A stretch of DNA of 64,000 bases from Lutimonas zeaxanthinifaciens (GTDB lineage Bacteria > Bacteroidota > Bacteroidia > Flavobacteriales > Flavobacteriaceae), in the NCBI RefSeq assembly GCF_030503675.1, contig NZ_CP129964.1, forward strand, positions 1,860,001 to 1,924,000, read 5' to 3'. This document shows, one piece after another, positions 46,759 to 52,093 of this stretch. A program made the translations under genes and the position numbers. Each line of letters opens with the position of its first letter. The first letter of the stretch is position 1. The notes under the pieces were generated by a model, which was given only the letters and a program-made list of their open reading frames with translations, was not told the origin of the DNA and ran no database searches.

Positions 46759-46935
46759 CTGAATAGGTTGCCAAAAGGTATTCAACTTTAATACGTAACA
46801 AAGAAACAAGATTCAAAGCAAAAATTACCAAGATTATTGAATTTAAATATGAACTACTTCATGCGAAATGCGCGACTTTAAATGGCAATAATTAGGTTTT
46901 AAGAAATCATGCAAATAAAATATTAACAAATTTTT

Positions 46936-46967
46936 TTGTTTAACTTTTTTGTTTTATTGTTAAACAA
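46936..46967. promoter_or_regulatory. Candidate operator for the TetR regulator
   Basis: TTGTTTAAC (46936-46944) and GTTAAACAA (46959-46967) are perfect nine-base inverted arms with a 14-base spacer. They enclose the -33 TTG of the promoter below, and the right arm ends four bases before the -7 box. A TetR dimer bound here would block RNA polymerase, so autorepression of the following operon is likely. Confidence 0.65.
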
Positions 46968-46979
46968 AACATATCTTTG
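46949..46979 (+). promoter_or_regulatory. Promoter of the TetR-ABC1-flavin reductase-FolE-SDR cluster
   Basis: TTG at 46949-46951, a 20-base spacer, and TATCTTTG at 46972-46979, all matching the Bacteroidota consensus. The predicted start near 46986 is 10 bases before the ATG, giving a very short leader. Confidence 0.7.
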
Positions 46980-46995
46980 ACTAAAATTAAGAGAT

Positions 46996-47652
46996 ATGGC
47001 ACGCAAGAAAAAAATTAATAAGGAGGATATCTATACATTCTACATGAATTATTATCTTGAAAATGGACGAGCTCCTTCTTCAGCCTACGAACTGGCTAAA
47101 TTGAATAATTTCGATGAAAAGGATTTCTATACGTTTTTTGGAAATCTAAAAACAGTTGAAAAGTCTATTTTTGATTCATTCTATGATCAAACATTACTGT
47201 TATTGCATAACAGTGAAGATTATGAAAGTTTTGATGTCAGGAATAAACTATTGAGCTTTTACTACACTTATTTTGAAATTCTGACAGCAAACCGAAGTTT
47301 TGTGATGGCACTTGCTTCGAAAAGCAAATTCAAATATGACTTGCTAAAGTTGCTCTCTTCTACGAAAAGAAAATTCTCATTTTTCGTTCAAAAACTGGAA
47401 ATTGATAAGTTGGATCTCAAGGATACAAAACTGGATGAGTTCATTGACCGATCCATTGAAGAAAGTCTATGGGTGCAATTTGTGGTCTGCTTTAAATTCT
47501 GGCTCGATGATGAATCTGCTTCATTGGAGAAAACAGACATTTTTATTGAAAAGTCGGTGAATACCGGTTTTGACCTTCTCAATGTGAAACCCCTGAGAAG
47601 TATACTCGACCTGGGCAAGTTTTTGTATCATGAGAAAATTCACATGAACTAA
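46996..47652 (+). CDS. TetR-like transcriptional regulator, first gene of the pterin/flavin cluster
   Basis: A 218-residue protein. The N-terminal 60 residues are a divergent TetR helix-turn-helix (SSAYELAKLNNFDEKDFYTF, followed by LKTVEKSIFDSFYDQTL), and the remainder is helical (IEESLWVQFVVCFKFWLDDE near 155-175). The HTH is poorly conserved against common TetR proteins. It is translationally coupled to the ABC1 gene by a TAATG overlap and has a perfect palindrome over its promoter. It should be the cluster's own repressor. The effector is unknown. Confidence 0.8.
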   Translation: MARKKKINKEDIYTFYMNYYLENGRAPSSAYELAKLNNFDEKDFYTFFGNLKTVEKSIFDSFYDQTLLLLHNSEDYESFDVRNKLLSFYYTYFEILTANRSFVMALASKSKFKYDLLKLLSSTKRKFSFFVQKLEIDKLDLKDTKLDEFIDRSIEESLWVQFVVCFKFWLDDESASLEKTDIFIEKSVNTGFDLLNVKPLRSILDLGKFLYHEKIHMN

Positions 47653-48962
47653 TGAATACCATAGATAGAATACCCGTAGGTAAGGTGGAACGCGCTACCA
47701 ATTTGGTCCAGACCGGAGCAAAAGTTGGGGTTAACTACATTAAATACTACGGAAAGAAACTCACTTCAAGTGAAAAAGAGGCTAGAGCAAGGCTCAATGA
47801 AGACAATGCCGCCGATATATATGACGGATTGAAAAAGCTTAAAGGAAGCGCTCTCAAAGTGGCACAAATGCTTAGCATGGAAAAAAGTATTATGCCTCAG
47901 GCTTATGTTGAAAAGTTCTCACTCTCTCAGTTTTCGGTCCCACCTTTATCTCCTGCTCTTGTGGTTAGGACGTTCAAGAAATATTTTGGAAAGTCGCCTC
48001 ACGAGGTTTTTGATGAATTTAATTCCAAATCAGTGAATGCAGCCAGCATAGGCCAGGTGCATAAGGTCTTAAACAACGATAAGCAGCTCGCAGTTAAAAT
48101 TCAATATCCGGGGGTTGCCGGAAGTATCAGCTCTGACCTGGCTCTCGTAAAGCCAATAGCGATCAAAATGTTCAATATACAAGGTAAAGATTCGGATAAA
48201 TACTTTAAGGAAGTTGAGGACAAACTAATCGAAGAAACAGATTACCGGCTGGAGTTAAAGCAATCCATAGAAATGGGGCAGGCATGCCGTCATATTCCCA
48301 ACCTTAAATTTCCGGAATACTACAAAGAGTTTTCTTCGGAAAAAATCCTGACCATGGATTGGATGTCAGGGGAACATCTTTCGGAATTTGTGCAACATGA
48401 TAATGATCAAACTGATCTGAATAATTTGGGACAGGCCCTCTGGGACTTCTACATGTTTCAGATCCACAGGCTGAAAAAAGTTCATGCTGATCCTCACCCG
48501 GGTAACTTTTTAGTGTCAAAAGAAAAAGAGTTAATCGCTCTTGATTTTGGTTGTATTAAACAGATTCCCGATGAATTTTACAATCCATACTTTGAATTGG
48601 CAGACAGAGAAAACCTTTCGAACCCTGAATATTTTAAAAATAAATTATTTGAACTTGAAATTCTACTTGAGGAAGATTCAAAAGAAGAAATTGAATTTTT
48701 CACTTCGATGTTTCACGAATTGCTAACTGTTTTTACAGAGCCTTTTCAATCTGAATTTTTTGACTTTTCGCGATCCACCTTTTTTGATAAAATAAGTGAT
48801 CTGAGTGAGAAATACAGTAAGAATACCGAACTGAGGAAAATGAATGCCAACAGAGGTTCAAAACACTTTATATACATGAACAGAACCTTCTTTGGACTCT
48901 ATAACCTCATGTTCGACCTTAAGGCAAAAAACGTAGAAATTAACCGCTTTAATTCATTTTAA
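47652..48962 (+). CDS. ABC1/UbiB (ADCK) atypical kinase-like protein
   Basis: A 436-residue protein of the AarF/UbiB/COQ8 family, members of which act as ATPases that extract or expose isoprenoid lipids such as quinones. Seen: an alanine-rich loop AASIGQVH (about 134) and AVKIQYPG with the ATP-site Lys. The catalytic loop HADPHPGNF is near 277 and the DFG of ALDFGCIKQ near 297. The family's N-terminal KxGQ motif reads Lys69-Val-Ala-Gln72, with Ala for Gly. It overlaps both neighbours by TAATG, so all three are coupled. No C-terminal membrane helices typical of UbiB are seen. The target lipid or cofactor is unknown. Confidence 0.9.
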   Translation: MNTIDRIPVGKVERATNLVQTGAKVGVNYIKYYGKKLTSSEKEARARLNEDNAADIYDGLKKLKGSALKVAQMLSMEKSIMPQAYVEKFSLSQFSVPPLSPALVVRTFKKYFGKSPHEVFDEFNSKSVNAASIGQVHKVLNNDKQLAVKIQYPGVAGSISSDLALVKPIAIKMFNIQGKDSDKYFKEVEDKLIEETDYRLELKQSIEMGQACRHIPNLKFPEYYKEFSSEKILTMDWMSGEHLSEFVQHDNDQTDLNNLGQALWDFYMFQIHRLKKVHADPHPGNFLVSKEKELIALDFGCIKQIPDEFYNPYFELADRENLSNPEYFKNKLFELEILLEEDSKEEIEFFTSMFHELLTVFTEPFQSEFFDFSRSTFFDKISDLSEKYSKNTELRKMNANRGSKHFIYMNRTFFGLYNLMFDLKAKNVEINRFNSF

Positions 48963-49603
48963 TGAAATCTTTCAATACACTTGATTTTAATAACATGGAA
49001 AGGTTGTACAGAATTAACCTGATCAACTCTGCGTCCGGATTCAAATCTGCGAATCTCATAGGGACTAAAAGCAAATCCGGCCACAGCAATGTTGCCATCA
49101 TCAGTTCCGTAATTCATTTGGGTTCTGATCCTGCTCTGTTGGGTTTTGTAAGCCGACCTGTTTCTGTACGTCGGAATACTTATGATAATATTAAAGAAAC
49201 AGGAATTTACACAATAAATCATGTTCATGAAGGTATCATTGAAGATGCACATCATACTTCAGCGAAATACGATGCATTAGTCTCGGAATTTTCAATGACA
49301 AATCTCAAGGAAGAATACAAATCAGAGTGTGACGCACCATTTGTTAAAGGAGCACCTGTTCAAATCAAAATGAAATTTCTCGAAGAAGTGAAATTAAAAT
49401 TAAACGGAACCATTATGATCATCGGTGAAATCCAGAAGCTTTTTGTTGAATACGGCATTCTCAAAAAAGATGGTTTAATAAACTTGACAGAAGGAAAAGT
49501 GGTCGCCATAAACGGACTGGATCATTACACCCTTCCTCAGTCAAAAAAAAGGCTTCCGTATCAAAGACCAAAAATTACAAATCAATTAGTTAAAGAATCA
49601 TAA
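48962..49603 (+). CDS. Flavin reductase family protein (FMN-binding split barrel)
   Basis: A 213-residue protein of the flavin-reductase-like FMN-binding family. Typical sequences: ANLIGTKSKSGHSNVAIISSV near the N-terminus, LLGFVSRPVSVRRNTYDNIKETG (20-residue core about 60-80), TINHVHEGIIEDAHHTSAKYD (about 83-103) and GTIMIIGEIQKLFVE. Members bind FMN and reduce flavin, or act as oxidoreductases with a partner. It overlaps the ABC1 stop by one base (TAATG) and is followed after 64 bases by folE. The presence of both flavin and pterin genes suggests a shared redox cofactor theme. Confidence 0.87.
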   Translation: MKSFNTLDFNNMERLYRINLINSASGFKSANLIGTKSKSGHSNVAIISSVIHLGSDPALLGFVSRPVSVRRNTYDNIKETGIYTINHVHEGIIEDAHHTSAKYDALVSEFSMTNLKEEYKSECDAPFVKGAPVQIKMKFLEEVKLKLNGTIMIIGEIQKLFVEYGILKKDGLINLTEGKVVAINGLDHYTLPQSKKRLPYQRPKITNQLVKES

Positions 49604-49667
49604 CCAATAAATCTATTAATATTAATCAATGCTTTGCTAATCAAGACAGCATTAAAAAAAGACAATT

Positions 49668-50363
49668 ATGAAAACAAACGAGCCCCTGTTTACCGAAGGA
49701 ACTTCCGCTTTAAAAATTTTAGATCACAATGAAATTGGCGACAATCACATGATGACCAGTTTAGAAACACCAATGAAAGATTCTGCTTTTGACATAAGTG
49801 ATGATGAAAAAAAAGAGAAAATCGCCTTCCATTTTAGCGAAATTATGGAAGTTCTTGGCCTTGACCTGACAGATGATTCTCTGCAGGGAACTCCTGACAG
49901 GGTGGCGAAAATGTTTATTGAAGAGATTTTTTCCGGCCTTGATCCAAAAAACAAACCGAAAGTTGCCCTGTTCGATAACAAGTACCAGTACAATCAGATG
50001 CTGGTTGAAAAAAACATCACATTTTATTCCAATTGTGAACATCATTTTGTTCCGATTATTGGAAAAGCACATGTGGCTTATATTTCTTCAGGGAAGGTAA
50101 TTGGCCTTTCCAAACTAAACCGTATTGTTCAGTATTATGCCAAAAGACCTCAGGTTCAGGAAAGACTGACCAACCAGATAGCAGATGAACTCAAGCGCAT
50201 TTTAGGAACGGAGGATATTGCAGTTATCATTGATGCCAAGCACCTTTGTGTATCTTCCAGAGGGATCAAAGATGACACTTCAACTACCGTCACTGCATAT
50301 TATGGAGGAGCGTTTGAGAAGCACGAAAAAATAGTTGAACTGCAAAATTTTATCCAGTCATGA
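49668..50363 (+). CDS. folE: GTP cyclohydrolase I
   Basis: A 231-residue FolE-I enzyme that turns GTP into 7,8-dihydroneopterin triphosphate. Zinc and active-site residues are present: FYSNCEHHFVPIIGKAHVAY (about 122-141) and KHLCVSSRGIKDDTSTT (about 190-206), with QVQERLTNQIAD in between. The N-terminal 40 residues before the fold are an extension of low conservation. It overlaps the SDR start by four bases (ATGA). In this place, after a flavin reductase and away from folate genes, it may be a second FolE serving a special pterin, for example a photolyase antenna, rather than folate. That is inference. Confidence 0.94.
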   Translation: MKTNEPLFTEGTSALKILDHNEIGDNHMMTSLETPMKDSAFDISDDEKKEKIAFHFSEIMEVLGLDLTDDSLQGTPDRVAKMFIEEIFSGLDPKNKPKVALFDNKYQYNQMLVEKNITFYSNCEHHFVPIIGKAHVAYISSGKVIGLSKLNRIVQYYAKRPQVQERLTNQIADELKRILGTEDIAVIIDAKHLCVSSRGIKDDTSTTVTAYYGGAFEKHEKIVELQNFIQS

Positions 50364-51043
50364 AAAAAGTACTCATCGTTGGAGGAAGCAGGGGAATTGG
50401 CAGAGCTGTTGTACAAAAAATGAATGAATCTTATGAATTGATCTCGATAAGCAGGTCTGCCTCAGAAGATATGAAAGGTTCTTTGGTTCAGTATACTTGC
50501 GACGTTTTGACGGATGAGTTACCTCATATTGAGGAATTGGAAGGCCTGGTCTATTGCCCGGGCACTATAAACCTAAAACCATTTACGCGCTTGTCAGAGT
50601 CAGATTTTAAAGAAGATTTTGAACTCAATGTATTGGGTGCGGTTAGGGTAATTCAAAAATACCTGAAACTTTTAAAAAATGGTAACGATTCTTCAGTTGT
50701 ACTTTTCAGCACAGTTGCGGTAAAAATGGGCATGCCCTTTCATGCCAGTATCGCCGTGGCGAAGGCCGGTGTGGAAGCACTAGTGAAATCATTGGGTGCA
50801 GAATTGTCACCAGGGATAAGATTCAACGCCATTGCACCTACCATTACAGATACTTCTTTGGCAGAAAAGATTCTGCGGAACGATGCCATGAAAGAAAAAA
50901 TGAAGGAAAGACATCCGATGAAGTCCTACCTGGAACCTAATGATGTGGCTGAAATGACTGAATTTTTAATTTCAGATAAAAGTAAAAAAATCTCGGGACA
51001 AATTTTTGAACTGGATTGTGGGATAGTCACGTTTAAGATTTAG
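50360..51043 (+). CDS. SDR-fold protein lacking the catalytic tyrosine
   Basis: A 227-residue classical-size SDR. The nucleotide-binding motif VGGSRGIGRAVV is at 7-18, and YCPGTINLKPF (about 65) replaces NNAG. Ser117 of LFSTVA and Lys135 are in place, but the residue four before the lysine, normally Tyr of YxxxK, is Ile131 (segment HASIAVAKAG). No tyrosine lies in that segment. The ending FELDCGIV replaces the usual INVDGG. It may be a reductase with a different acid residue, for example His128, or a binding protein. The four-base overlap with folE suggests a pterin-related substrate. Confidence 0.85.
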   Translation: MKKVLIVGGSRGIGRAVVQKMNESYELISISRSASEDMKGSLVQYTCDVLTDELPHIEELEGLVYCPGTINLKPFTRLSESDFKEDFELNVLGAVRVIQKYLKLLKNGNDSSVVLFSTVAVKMGMPFHASIAVAKAGVEALVKSLGAELSPGIRFNAIAPTITDTSLAEKILRNDAMKEKMKERHPMKSYLEPNDVAEMTEFLISDKSKKISGQIFELDCGIVTFKI

Positions 51044-51163
51044 CCTGAAAGTTCTATTAAATCCGCAAAATAGCAGTTAAGGGGACTAAACAAAGAGAAT
51101 CTCTTACGACGTTTTTCACATTATTTTATTAAATAATTAACTCAATATTTAGTATCATTGCGC

Positions 51164-52093
51164 ATGCAAAAAATTGTGTTCACATTTTTTTTGATTTGCT
51201 TGCATCTGAATGGTTTTTCTCAGCAGATTATTGAAAAGGAAAAAGATTCTGTAACAGCATCATCTGTATCCAAAAAACAAGATTCTCTAAACTCGGAAGT
51301 ATTTACCACTATAGATGGGATCACGAAAGATACGATTAAAGAGACGGATCAAGGTGTACATACATTAAAGGGAAGAATTATCAGTATCACTGATAAAAAG
51401 CCTCTCCAGAGCGCCCACGTTGTAAACCTGAATTCTGTAGATGGAACGATTACCAACTCAAATGGACAATTTGAGATTCCCGCCGTGGTTAACGACACCA
51501 TATTTATTTCTTACATCGGTTTTCAGTCTATCAAACTTAAAATCACCAATGATTTGCTTAAAGGAAACGAACTTGAAATTGCTATTCATGAAAAAGTGGT
51601 CAACATTCAGGAAGTAACATTAAAATCGCATAAGTTGATCGGTGTACTTGTAGTTGATGCTAAAAATGTACCTCAGGATTCGTATAGCAGAATACATATA
51701 AACGGTTTACCTCAGGCCTATGAAAGAGGAAATGCCTATAACAGGAATTTTAATTCGGGATTGGGGGCCATATTTAACCCTGTTGATTTCTGGTATAACA
51801 AATTTGGCAAGAAACCAAAGGAAATGCAGCGTCTTAGGAAGTTGAAGGAAGGTGATCAGATGAGAAACATGATGGAGCAAAAGTACAGTCGTGAAATCAT
51901 GATGGACTATCTCGACATGAGCCGAAAGGAATTGAACGATCTGCTTTCAGAATGTAACTATTCAAATCGGTTTATAAATAAAGCCAGTGACCTTCAGATC
52001 ATAGAGGCAGTGCTGGAATGCTATGAGAATTATAGAGCGATACAAAAAGGCCAGGTCAAAAAAGATATTATTCGTATCAATAGTGAATATTAA
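51164..52093 (+). CDS. Exported protein with CarboxypepD_reg-like domain
   Basis: A 309-residue protein from ATG 51164 with a signal peptide (about 1-18, GFSQQ). After a charged linker, residues about 68-145 form a carboxypeptidase-regulatory-like beta domain (LKGRIISITDKKPLQSAHVV, SNGQFEIPAVVNDTIFISYI, GFQSIKL). The remaining part is helical and charged (PKEMQRLRKLKEGDQMRNMM). This architecture is common in Bacteroidota periplasmic proteins, with no catalytic motif. It follows the SDR gene after 120 bases and has a bidirectional terminator behind it. Role unknown. Confidence 0.8.
   Translation: MQKIVFTFFLICLHLNGFSQQIIEKEKDSVTASSVSKKQDSLNSEVFTTIDGITKDTIKETDQGVHTLKGRIISITDKKPLQSAHVVNLNSVDGTITNSNGQFEIPAVVNDTIFISYIGFQSIKLKITNDLLKGNELEIAIHEKVVNIQEVTLKSHKLIGVLVVDAKNVPQDSYSRIHINGLPQAYERGNAYNRNFNSGLGAIFNPVDFWYNKFGKKPKEMQRLRKLKEGDQMRNMMEQKYSREIMMDYLDMSRKELNDLLSECNYSNRFINKASDLQIIEAVLECYENYRAIQKGQVKKDIIRINSEY

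Follow-up and report, generated by a model that had tools for sequence, protein, structure and literature searches.

The stretch of DNA analysed here (the window; 64,000 nucleotides from the genome of Lutimonas zeaxanthinifaciens, Flavobacteriaceae) contains five closely spaced genes encoding a TetR-like protein, an ABC1 protein, a flavin reductase, GTP cyclohydrolase I (FolE) and a short-chain dehydrogenase-like protein (SDR), which are headed by a palindromic operator. With a probability of slightly below 60 %, these genes represent the contracted form of a light-induced photoprotection operon of the Flavobacteriaceae which is controlled by a MerR regulator of the CarH/LitR type and which includes a lipid-related TetR-like/ABC1 pair. 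Comparison with related genomes establishes, at the level of sequence, that the operon is conserved, that its members share an operator, that this operator is associated with a MerR regulator, that the TetR-like and ABC1 genes are paired and that the TetR-like protein has lost recognisable DNA-binding features. The components of the locus are as follows:

46937 to 46966 (full arms 46934 to 46969), no strand: core of the operator palindrome, TGTTTAAC-N14-GTTAAACA, from inverted-repeat search and comparison
46972 to 46979, plus strand: putative Bacteroidota-type -7 box TATCTTTG, just 3' of the palindrome, by fit to the consensus
46996 to 47652, plus strand: TetR-fold protein (PF17931 of Pfam) in which no DNA-binding domain is recognisable, constant neighbour of ABC1
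47652 to 48962, plus strand: atypical kinase of the ABC1/UbiB family (PF03109)
48962 to 49603, plus strand: flavin reductase-like protein (PF01613, Flavin_Reduct)
49604 to 49667, plus strand: intergenic gap where, by locus comparison, the operons of relatives hold a photolyase block
49668 to 50363, plus strand: GTP cyclohydrolase I (FolE; NF006824), orthologue of the light-operon FolE
50360 to 51043, plus strand: short-chain dehydrogenase-like protein (SDR; PF13561, PF00106)

The initial annotation had described the five genes as coupled by short overlaps or gaps and as preceded by a perfect palindrome. Open reading frames (ORFs), protein families, junctions and palindrome are all confirmed. 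Both the TetR-like/ABC1 junction (TAATG) and the ABC1/flavin reductase junction consist of an overlap of one base, FolE and SDR overlap by four bases (ATGA), and 64 bases separate the flavin reductase gene from that of FolE. From these overlaps together with the conserved gene order we infer that the five genes are co-transcribed. In the gap between flavin reductase and FolE there is an inverted repeat, AATGCT...AGCATT, with a stretch of A residues after it; both are conserved in the corresponding gap of Lutimonas halocynthiae (L059).

The operon and its relatives

A search of 148 genomes of the order yielded ABC1 orthologues (at least 47 % identity) in 36 of them. For the comparison of gene content 99 loci were assembled, namely 18 from those genomes, 80 named GTDB loci, which are the best 80 of at least 586 confirmed relatives in one contig scan, and the window itself. 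Genes were assigned by means of profiles for which the first 20 loci served as the source, using score thresholds of our own choice; the loci are related and were chosen by similarity, and the counts given below measure conservation and should not be read as independent trials. ABC1 is immediately preceded by a TetR-like ORF in 97 of the 99 loci, the gap amounting to between -52 and 64 bases in 94 cases and to 190, 227 and 484 bases in the other three. Further neighbours were counted in the 59 GTDB loci that extend more than 9 kb to either side of the operon (full-flank loci). A photolyase, cryptochrome or DPRP gene is present within about 10 kb in 47 of these, SDR in 43 (a figure which may include FabG-like SDRs), SDR-DUF2867 in 41, flavin reductase in 38, DUF2805 (TIGR03643) as well as FolE in 36, FolE jointly with SDR in 28, SRPBCC in 31, DUF2256 in 20, crtI/crtB/crtZ in 10 and MerR in seven. 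Thirty-two contain c9, a protein of about 142 to 149 amino acids which in the two members tested gave no Pfam match.

The recurrent order reads TetR-like, ABC1, flavin reductase, SDR-DUF2867, DUF2256, DASH cryptochrome, DPRP, second cryptochrome, c9, DUF2805, FolE, SDR. All 12 genes follow it exactly in 13 of the 99 loci, and parts of it recur in many more. The association with photolyase/cryptochrome, DUF2256 and TIGR03643 genes which the initial annotation had put forward is thus borne out, and the homologues show a conserved order rather than scatter. The nearest relative of the window is L059, with 79 % identity of ABC1. Both loci comprise the TetR-like, ABC1, flavin reductase, FolE and SDR genes only, the middle of the operon being missing. 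By this comparison the window module is a larger operon in contracted form, of which both ends are kept, and not the stand-alone unit of five genes as which it had been presented.

Most of the missing middle is found at other sites of the same genome, which consists of one contig of 3.53 Mb and contains three photolyase-family genes outside the window. An SDR-DUF2867/photolyase pair is located near 217 kb, a set of RibD_C-like, cryptochrome-like, DUF2256 and DPRP genes near 1332 kb, c9 near 799.5 kb on contig C1 (L149 4248-4694) and DUF2805 near 1510 kb.

In the vicinity of the operon, the 80 GTDB loci also feature genes labelled glutathione peroxidase (42 loci) and TspO (36 loci), one member of each having been verified by Pfam, and an unknown protein of 75 amino acids (36 loci). 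Glutathione peroxidase and TspO would suit an operon that responds to photooxidative or peroxide stress and whose signal is an oxidant instead of light sensed by MerR, as would the flavin reductase and the carotenoid genes. We regard this explanation as unlikely since photolyases work only with light and since the operator tracks a MerR protein with a B12-binding_2 domain, as in known light regulators.

Operator and regulator

The palindrome ahead of the TetR-like gene is an inverted repeat whose 11-base arms (46934-46944 and 46959-46969) are 100 % complementary and 14 bases apart. A search of the window with its 30-base core gave a single exact match and, with up to three mismatches allowed, three matches versus 0.53 expected from shuffles; three of 100 shuffles likewise reached three matches. 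Within the window, it is only the exactness of the match which is unusual; its significance comes from related genomes. The adjacent TATCTTTG fits TAnnTTTG, which we take to be the -7 consensus of Bacteroidota. A sigma-70-type scan of 46800-51300 gave no site at the operon promoter (nine sites in total versus 12.5 in shuffles).

When inverted repeats with 8-base arms, at most one mismatch and gaps of 0 to 24 bases were collected from the loci, the gap of 14 accounted for 94 of 104 pairs and for 43 of the 45 exact ones. Throughout 1.84 Mb the wider consensus TGTYNAA-N16-TTNRACA occurs at 133 sites, versus one at control spacing. Seventy-seven of them, distributed over 74 of the 99 loci, are situated at the operon lead; c9 is preceded by 26 and crtI by seven. 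The remainder lie before SDR-DUF2867 (3), FolE (3) and DUF2805 (1), by MerR (4) and by other TetR-like genes (3) or are unassigned (9). The genome of L. zeaxanthinifaciens holds eight pattern sites versus one match of the reversed control. Scored with a matrix built without the window, five of the eight reach 27 to 36 bits and one -1.3, two being unscored. These high-scoring sites are located ahead of the operon in the window, of c9, of the DUF2452-DUF2805-amine oxidase genes, of a fasciclin gene and of a divergent pair of fasciclin and MFS-DUF1295 genes. Among the members of the regulon, c9 is one that recurs with an operator. The pattern with an N15 spacer, which matched an off-spacing cryptochrome site, shows no excess over the control (7 versus 8), and a search for half-sites was uninformative, the control count exceeding that of the pattern. 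A tandem 11-bp repeat of the CarH type was also considered and dropped, as the inverted repeat with a gap of 14 fits far better.

To find out which regulator owns this operator, the occurrence of operator, MerR and ABC1 was tabulated over the same 148 genomes, with MerR termed strong at E<1e-48 and accepted more laxly at E<1e-30. The operator is present in 25 of 28 genomes with both strong MerR and ABC1 (reversed control: 6); among those with strong MerR but no ABC1, 13 of 14 contain it (control: 1). Where ABC1 occurs and MerR is missing at E<1e-30, all such genomes being of family f5, it is found in one of seven cases (control: 3), and where both proteins are missing in four of 74 (control: 7). 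At E<1e-48 the count for ABC1 without MerR becomes two of eight, the eighth being the genome of the window, whose MerR scores E 1.9e-44. The reversed control itself shows no association with MerR (8/67 with, 10/81 without). Two loci, L116 and L123, lack the TetR-like gene; the former keeps a symmetric variant of the operator, TGTCTAA...TTAGACA, before ABC1, and the latter has a form outside the consensus. Because the operator tracks MerR across the 148 genomes and a variant of it persists in L116 without a TetR-like gene, we attribute the palindrome to MerR as its regulator, not to the TetR-like/ABC1 pair, although this rule is not universal.

According to the initial annotation the TetR protein would regulate itself, binding the palindrome and repressing its own operon until released by a ligand. 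The palindrome does lie directly 5' of the TetR-like gene, and the model of the protein displays a fold close to that of FadR-type repressors. Furthermore, of three loci checked in family f5, which has no MerR, two (L051, L052) carry a different AT-rich palindrome 5' of the TetR-like gene, which perhaps belongs to another regulator. Autoregulation is nevertheless quite improbable in view of the palindrome being found before crtI, c9 and other genes as well, of its following MerR and not ABC1 where only one of the two is present (13/14 versus 1/7), of its variant persisting in L116, and of the TetR-like protein having an acidic recognition helix and no TetR_N match.

The genome of the window encodes its MerR (L152 6643-7530, C1:2543.8 kb) beside crtI-crtB. 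MerR_1 and B12-binding_2 exceed the cut-off in all six MerR proteins tested, and ExHxxG and W-x9-EH are present in the MerR sequences read. A MerR gene beside crt genes is likewise known from LitR/CarH regulons, both those of the Pseudomonas class II LitR and those of class I in Thermus, Myxococcus and Bacillus, with which the present system further shares photolyase, cryptochrome, FolE and SDR as members and paired TGT..ACA half-sites. According to an excerpt of PMC9758184, LitR homologues of Pseudomonas putida control 19 light-inducible genes including phrB, ufaM, folE and cryB; in P. mendocina the region additionally contains folM and folX. The operator given there, TGTACA-N12-TGTACA (PMC9758184), differs from the TGTTTAAC-N14-GTTAAACA seen here, and the TetR-like/ABC1 pair, flavin reductase, DPRP, DUF2805, DUF2256 and c9 are additional members found in the flavobacterial regulon. 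Light-responsive cryptochrome and photolyase genes are reported for the flavobacterium Dokdonia MED134 (PMC9040609, in part). On comparative grounds, the conserved operon is a Bacteroidota variant of the LitR kind of regulon with an operator of its own. Among the top-ranked matches listed in searches of the open-licence literature in PMC, no paper described the operon, the TetR-like/ABC1 pair with photolyases or the operator.

The TetR-like/ABC1 pair and the enzymes

All 18 orthologues of the TetR-like protein tested match TetR_C_23 (PF17931). None of them matches TetR_N (PF00440) at E<=10, HMMER filters dropping most matches above 0.1, and a TetR_N search of the whole genome (E<=10) returned five other genes over the cut-off, the TetR-like protein not being among the matches. 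In 56 of 56 orthologues the charge of the recognition helix ranges from -1 to -4; for the five true TetRs of the same genome it lies between 0 and +2. The predicted structure (predicted local distance difference test score 87, predicted template modelling score 0.81) exhibits the TetR fold, with three helices at the N-terminus and a helical ligand domain, its best Foldseek match (E 3.8e-05) being a TetR regulator. FadR-type regulators are nearest to the protein by profile and rank near the top by fold; they are distinguished from it by its acidic recognition helix, missing TetR_N match and fixed ABC1 neighbour. To judge from sequence, the TetR-like protein is thus devoid of recognisable DNA-binding features. 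A profile search detected it in 37 of the 148 genomes. All 36 ABC1 genomes possess one copy, on the same strand and 8 to 786 bases upstream of ABC1, and genome G116 has a TetR-like protein (29 % identity) without ABC1 beside it.

The ABC1 protein of the window matches PF03109 with 185.8 bits (cut-off 22.9), and its nearest solved relatives are mycobacterial MABP-1 and COQ8A/B. In common with COQ8 and UbiB it has the AASIGQVH loop as well as the DPHPGN and DFG motifs, the ATP-site and DFG motifs being invariant in 17 of 17 orthologues. It differs from them in the KxGQ motif, which reads KxAQ with Ala in 17 of 17 orthologues (KVAQ in the window), in its non-quinone locus and in its TetR-fold partner. 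COQ9 is reported to be an atypical member of the TetR family for which DNA binding is not predicted (excerpt of PMC9774615), and COQ8B to be an ATPase which streamlines the COQ enzymes (excerpt of PMC7615680). The TetR-like protein resembles COQ9 in its fold, in the apparent lack of DNA binding and in belonging with an ABC1 ATPase; it differs in showing no significant sequence relation to COQ9, whose profile (PF08511) is matched weakly by seven of 18 orthologues with a best E of 0.015. Homology to COQ9 is not established by sequence, and we use COQ9 as an analogy. It is a reasonable one that the pair may work like COQ9 and COQ8, as a TetR-fold lipid binder and an ABC1 ATPase.

The FolE of the window qualifies as an equivalog of NF006824 (282.4 bits versus 202) and TIGR00063 (221 versus 181.6) and is 69-81 % identical to the FolE proteins of main-clade operons. 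Since a second FolE, 57 % identical to it, is encoded elsewhere in the genome (C1:1668739), the window FolE is probably a dedicated paralogue. Five loci of a Flavobacterium-type group (L044, L045, L127, L135 and L137) hold a distant FolE subgroup of 39-42 % identity in the same operon, from which FolE appears to have been recruited twice independently. That the genes form an operon of metabolism which supplies folate or menaquinone, ABC1 acting as UbiB and photolyases being nearby in relatives by chance, would agree with the match of FolE to the GTP cyclohydrolase I model and with the role of ABC1 proteins in quinone synthesis elsewhere, but is hardly credible given the second FolE, the UbiB score of ABC1 (TIGR01982: 155.6, under the cut-off of 487.55) and the photolyase-family neighbours at 47 of 59 loci.

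Aligned to 2nm0, the SDR retains Ser117 and Lys135 in 54 of 54 orthologues, and the catalytic Tyr of the classical Ser-Tyr-Lys triad is replaced by Ile or Val in all 54. His128-x-Ser130 is invariant. The SDR may catalyse a different reaction or act by binding alone. A tetrahydrobiopterin or FolM-type pathway formed by FolE and SDR was considered; the missing Tyr argues against a simple reductase.

Proposed light response and its weighing

In the mechanism that we infer, the CarH/LitR-type repressor would occupy the 30-bp palindrome over the promoter in the dark, and light would free it from the operator, the sensor being either bound B12 or a partner protein. The operon would then be transcribed jointly with c9, DUF2805 and the other operons bearing the same operator. 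FolE would provide pterin, and flavin reductase reduced flavin, to the photolyase/cryptochrome enzymes whose genes now reside at other sites of the genome. The TetR-fold protein, having lost DNA binding, would bind a membrane lipid and act paired with ABC1, whose COQ8-like ATPase may help to extract or present this lipid (carotenoid, menaquinone or oxidised lipid). By analogy the two could form a bacterial COQ9/COQ8-like pair outside quinone synthesis, light-induced via the CarH/LitR-type regulator, which moves carotenoids, menaquinone or photo-oxidised lipids from the membrane, a tentative proposal to which we assign somewhat less than even odds. The light-responsive role suggested at the outset is the best reading of the locus.

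A number of observations count against this light-induced operon. The tabulation over the 148 genomes ignores phylogeny, and of the 38 genomes with MerR at E<1e-30 and no ABC1 just 15 contain the operator, so that distant MerR homologues are mostly without it. No consensus site exists at the operon lead in 25 of 99 loci, among them seven (L058, L125, L128, L129, L131, L132, L134) of the 12 loci with a MerR-like ORF; of these seven, L131, L132 and L134 do have an operator before crtI, and two operators adjoin the crt genes of L058. In the genome of the window itself the crtI promoter beside the MerR gene offers a weak site (18.9), a matrix scan of the SDR-DUF2867/photolyase locus found no operator, and at the cryptochrome-DPRP promoter only an off-spacing form occurs. 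In marine metagenomes DUF2805 has been tied to domains related to translation, not to light (PMC3597751, in part). As to the lipid pair, a profile search of PDB sequences with the TetR-like protein returned TetR regulators but, at E<=10, no COQ9, and in the ranking by fold human COQ9 (6awl) comes in 11th place, after TetR regulators including 3c07 and FadR.

Finally, the MerR of this genome is 35-36 % identical to the flavobacterial query MerRs, and it exceeds the cut-offs of PF13411 and PF02607 while its match to PF02310 (E 0.0063) stays below; the five other MerRs tested gave no PF02310 match at E<=0.01. Both B12 domains are generally needed for B12 binding, yet class II LitRs without the second domain still act in the light response via a LOV partner (excerpt of PMC9758184). 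From the domain matches and this precedent, the assignment of MerR to the CarH/LitR type is well supported and its use of B12 half supported; the light sensor is not.

If the proposed light response holds, it would define a specific regulon for Flavobacteriaceae with operator, candidate regulator and member genes, and would tie DUF2805, DUF2256 and c9, proteins without an assigned function, to light. It would also offer a small bacterial system in which ABC1/COQ8 ATPases and their pairing with a TetR fold can be studied away from ubiquinone synthesis. A caution follows for annotation, as a gene which heads an operon and is annotated as a TetR regulator need not regulate that operon.

Further genes were noted beside operator sites. 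Fasciclin-domain genes adjoin two operator sites and one off-spacing site (C1:745254, C1:3069856 and C1:1331781), and another one (L152 7700-9523) is located opposite the MerR gene. The two operator-like palindromes beside the crt genes of L058 lie close together (590-672) and are flanked by an ORF of B12-binding type and, as read from the sequence, a likely gene for an extracytoplasmic function sigma factor.

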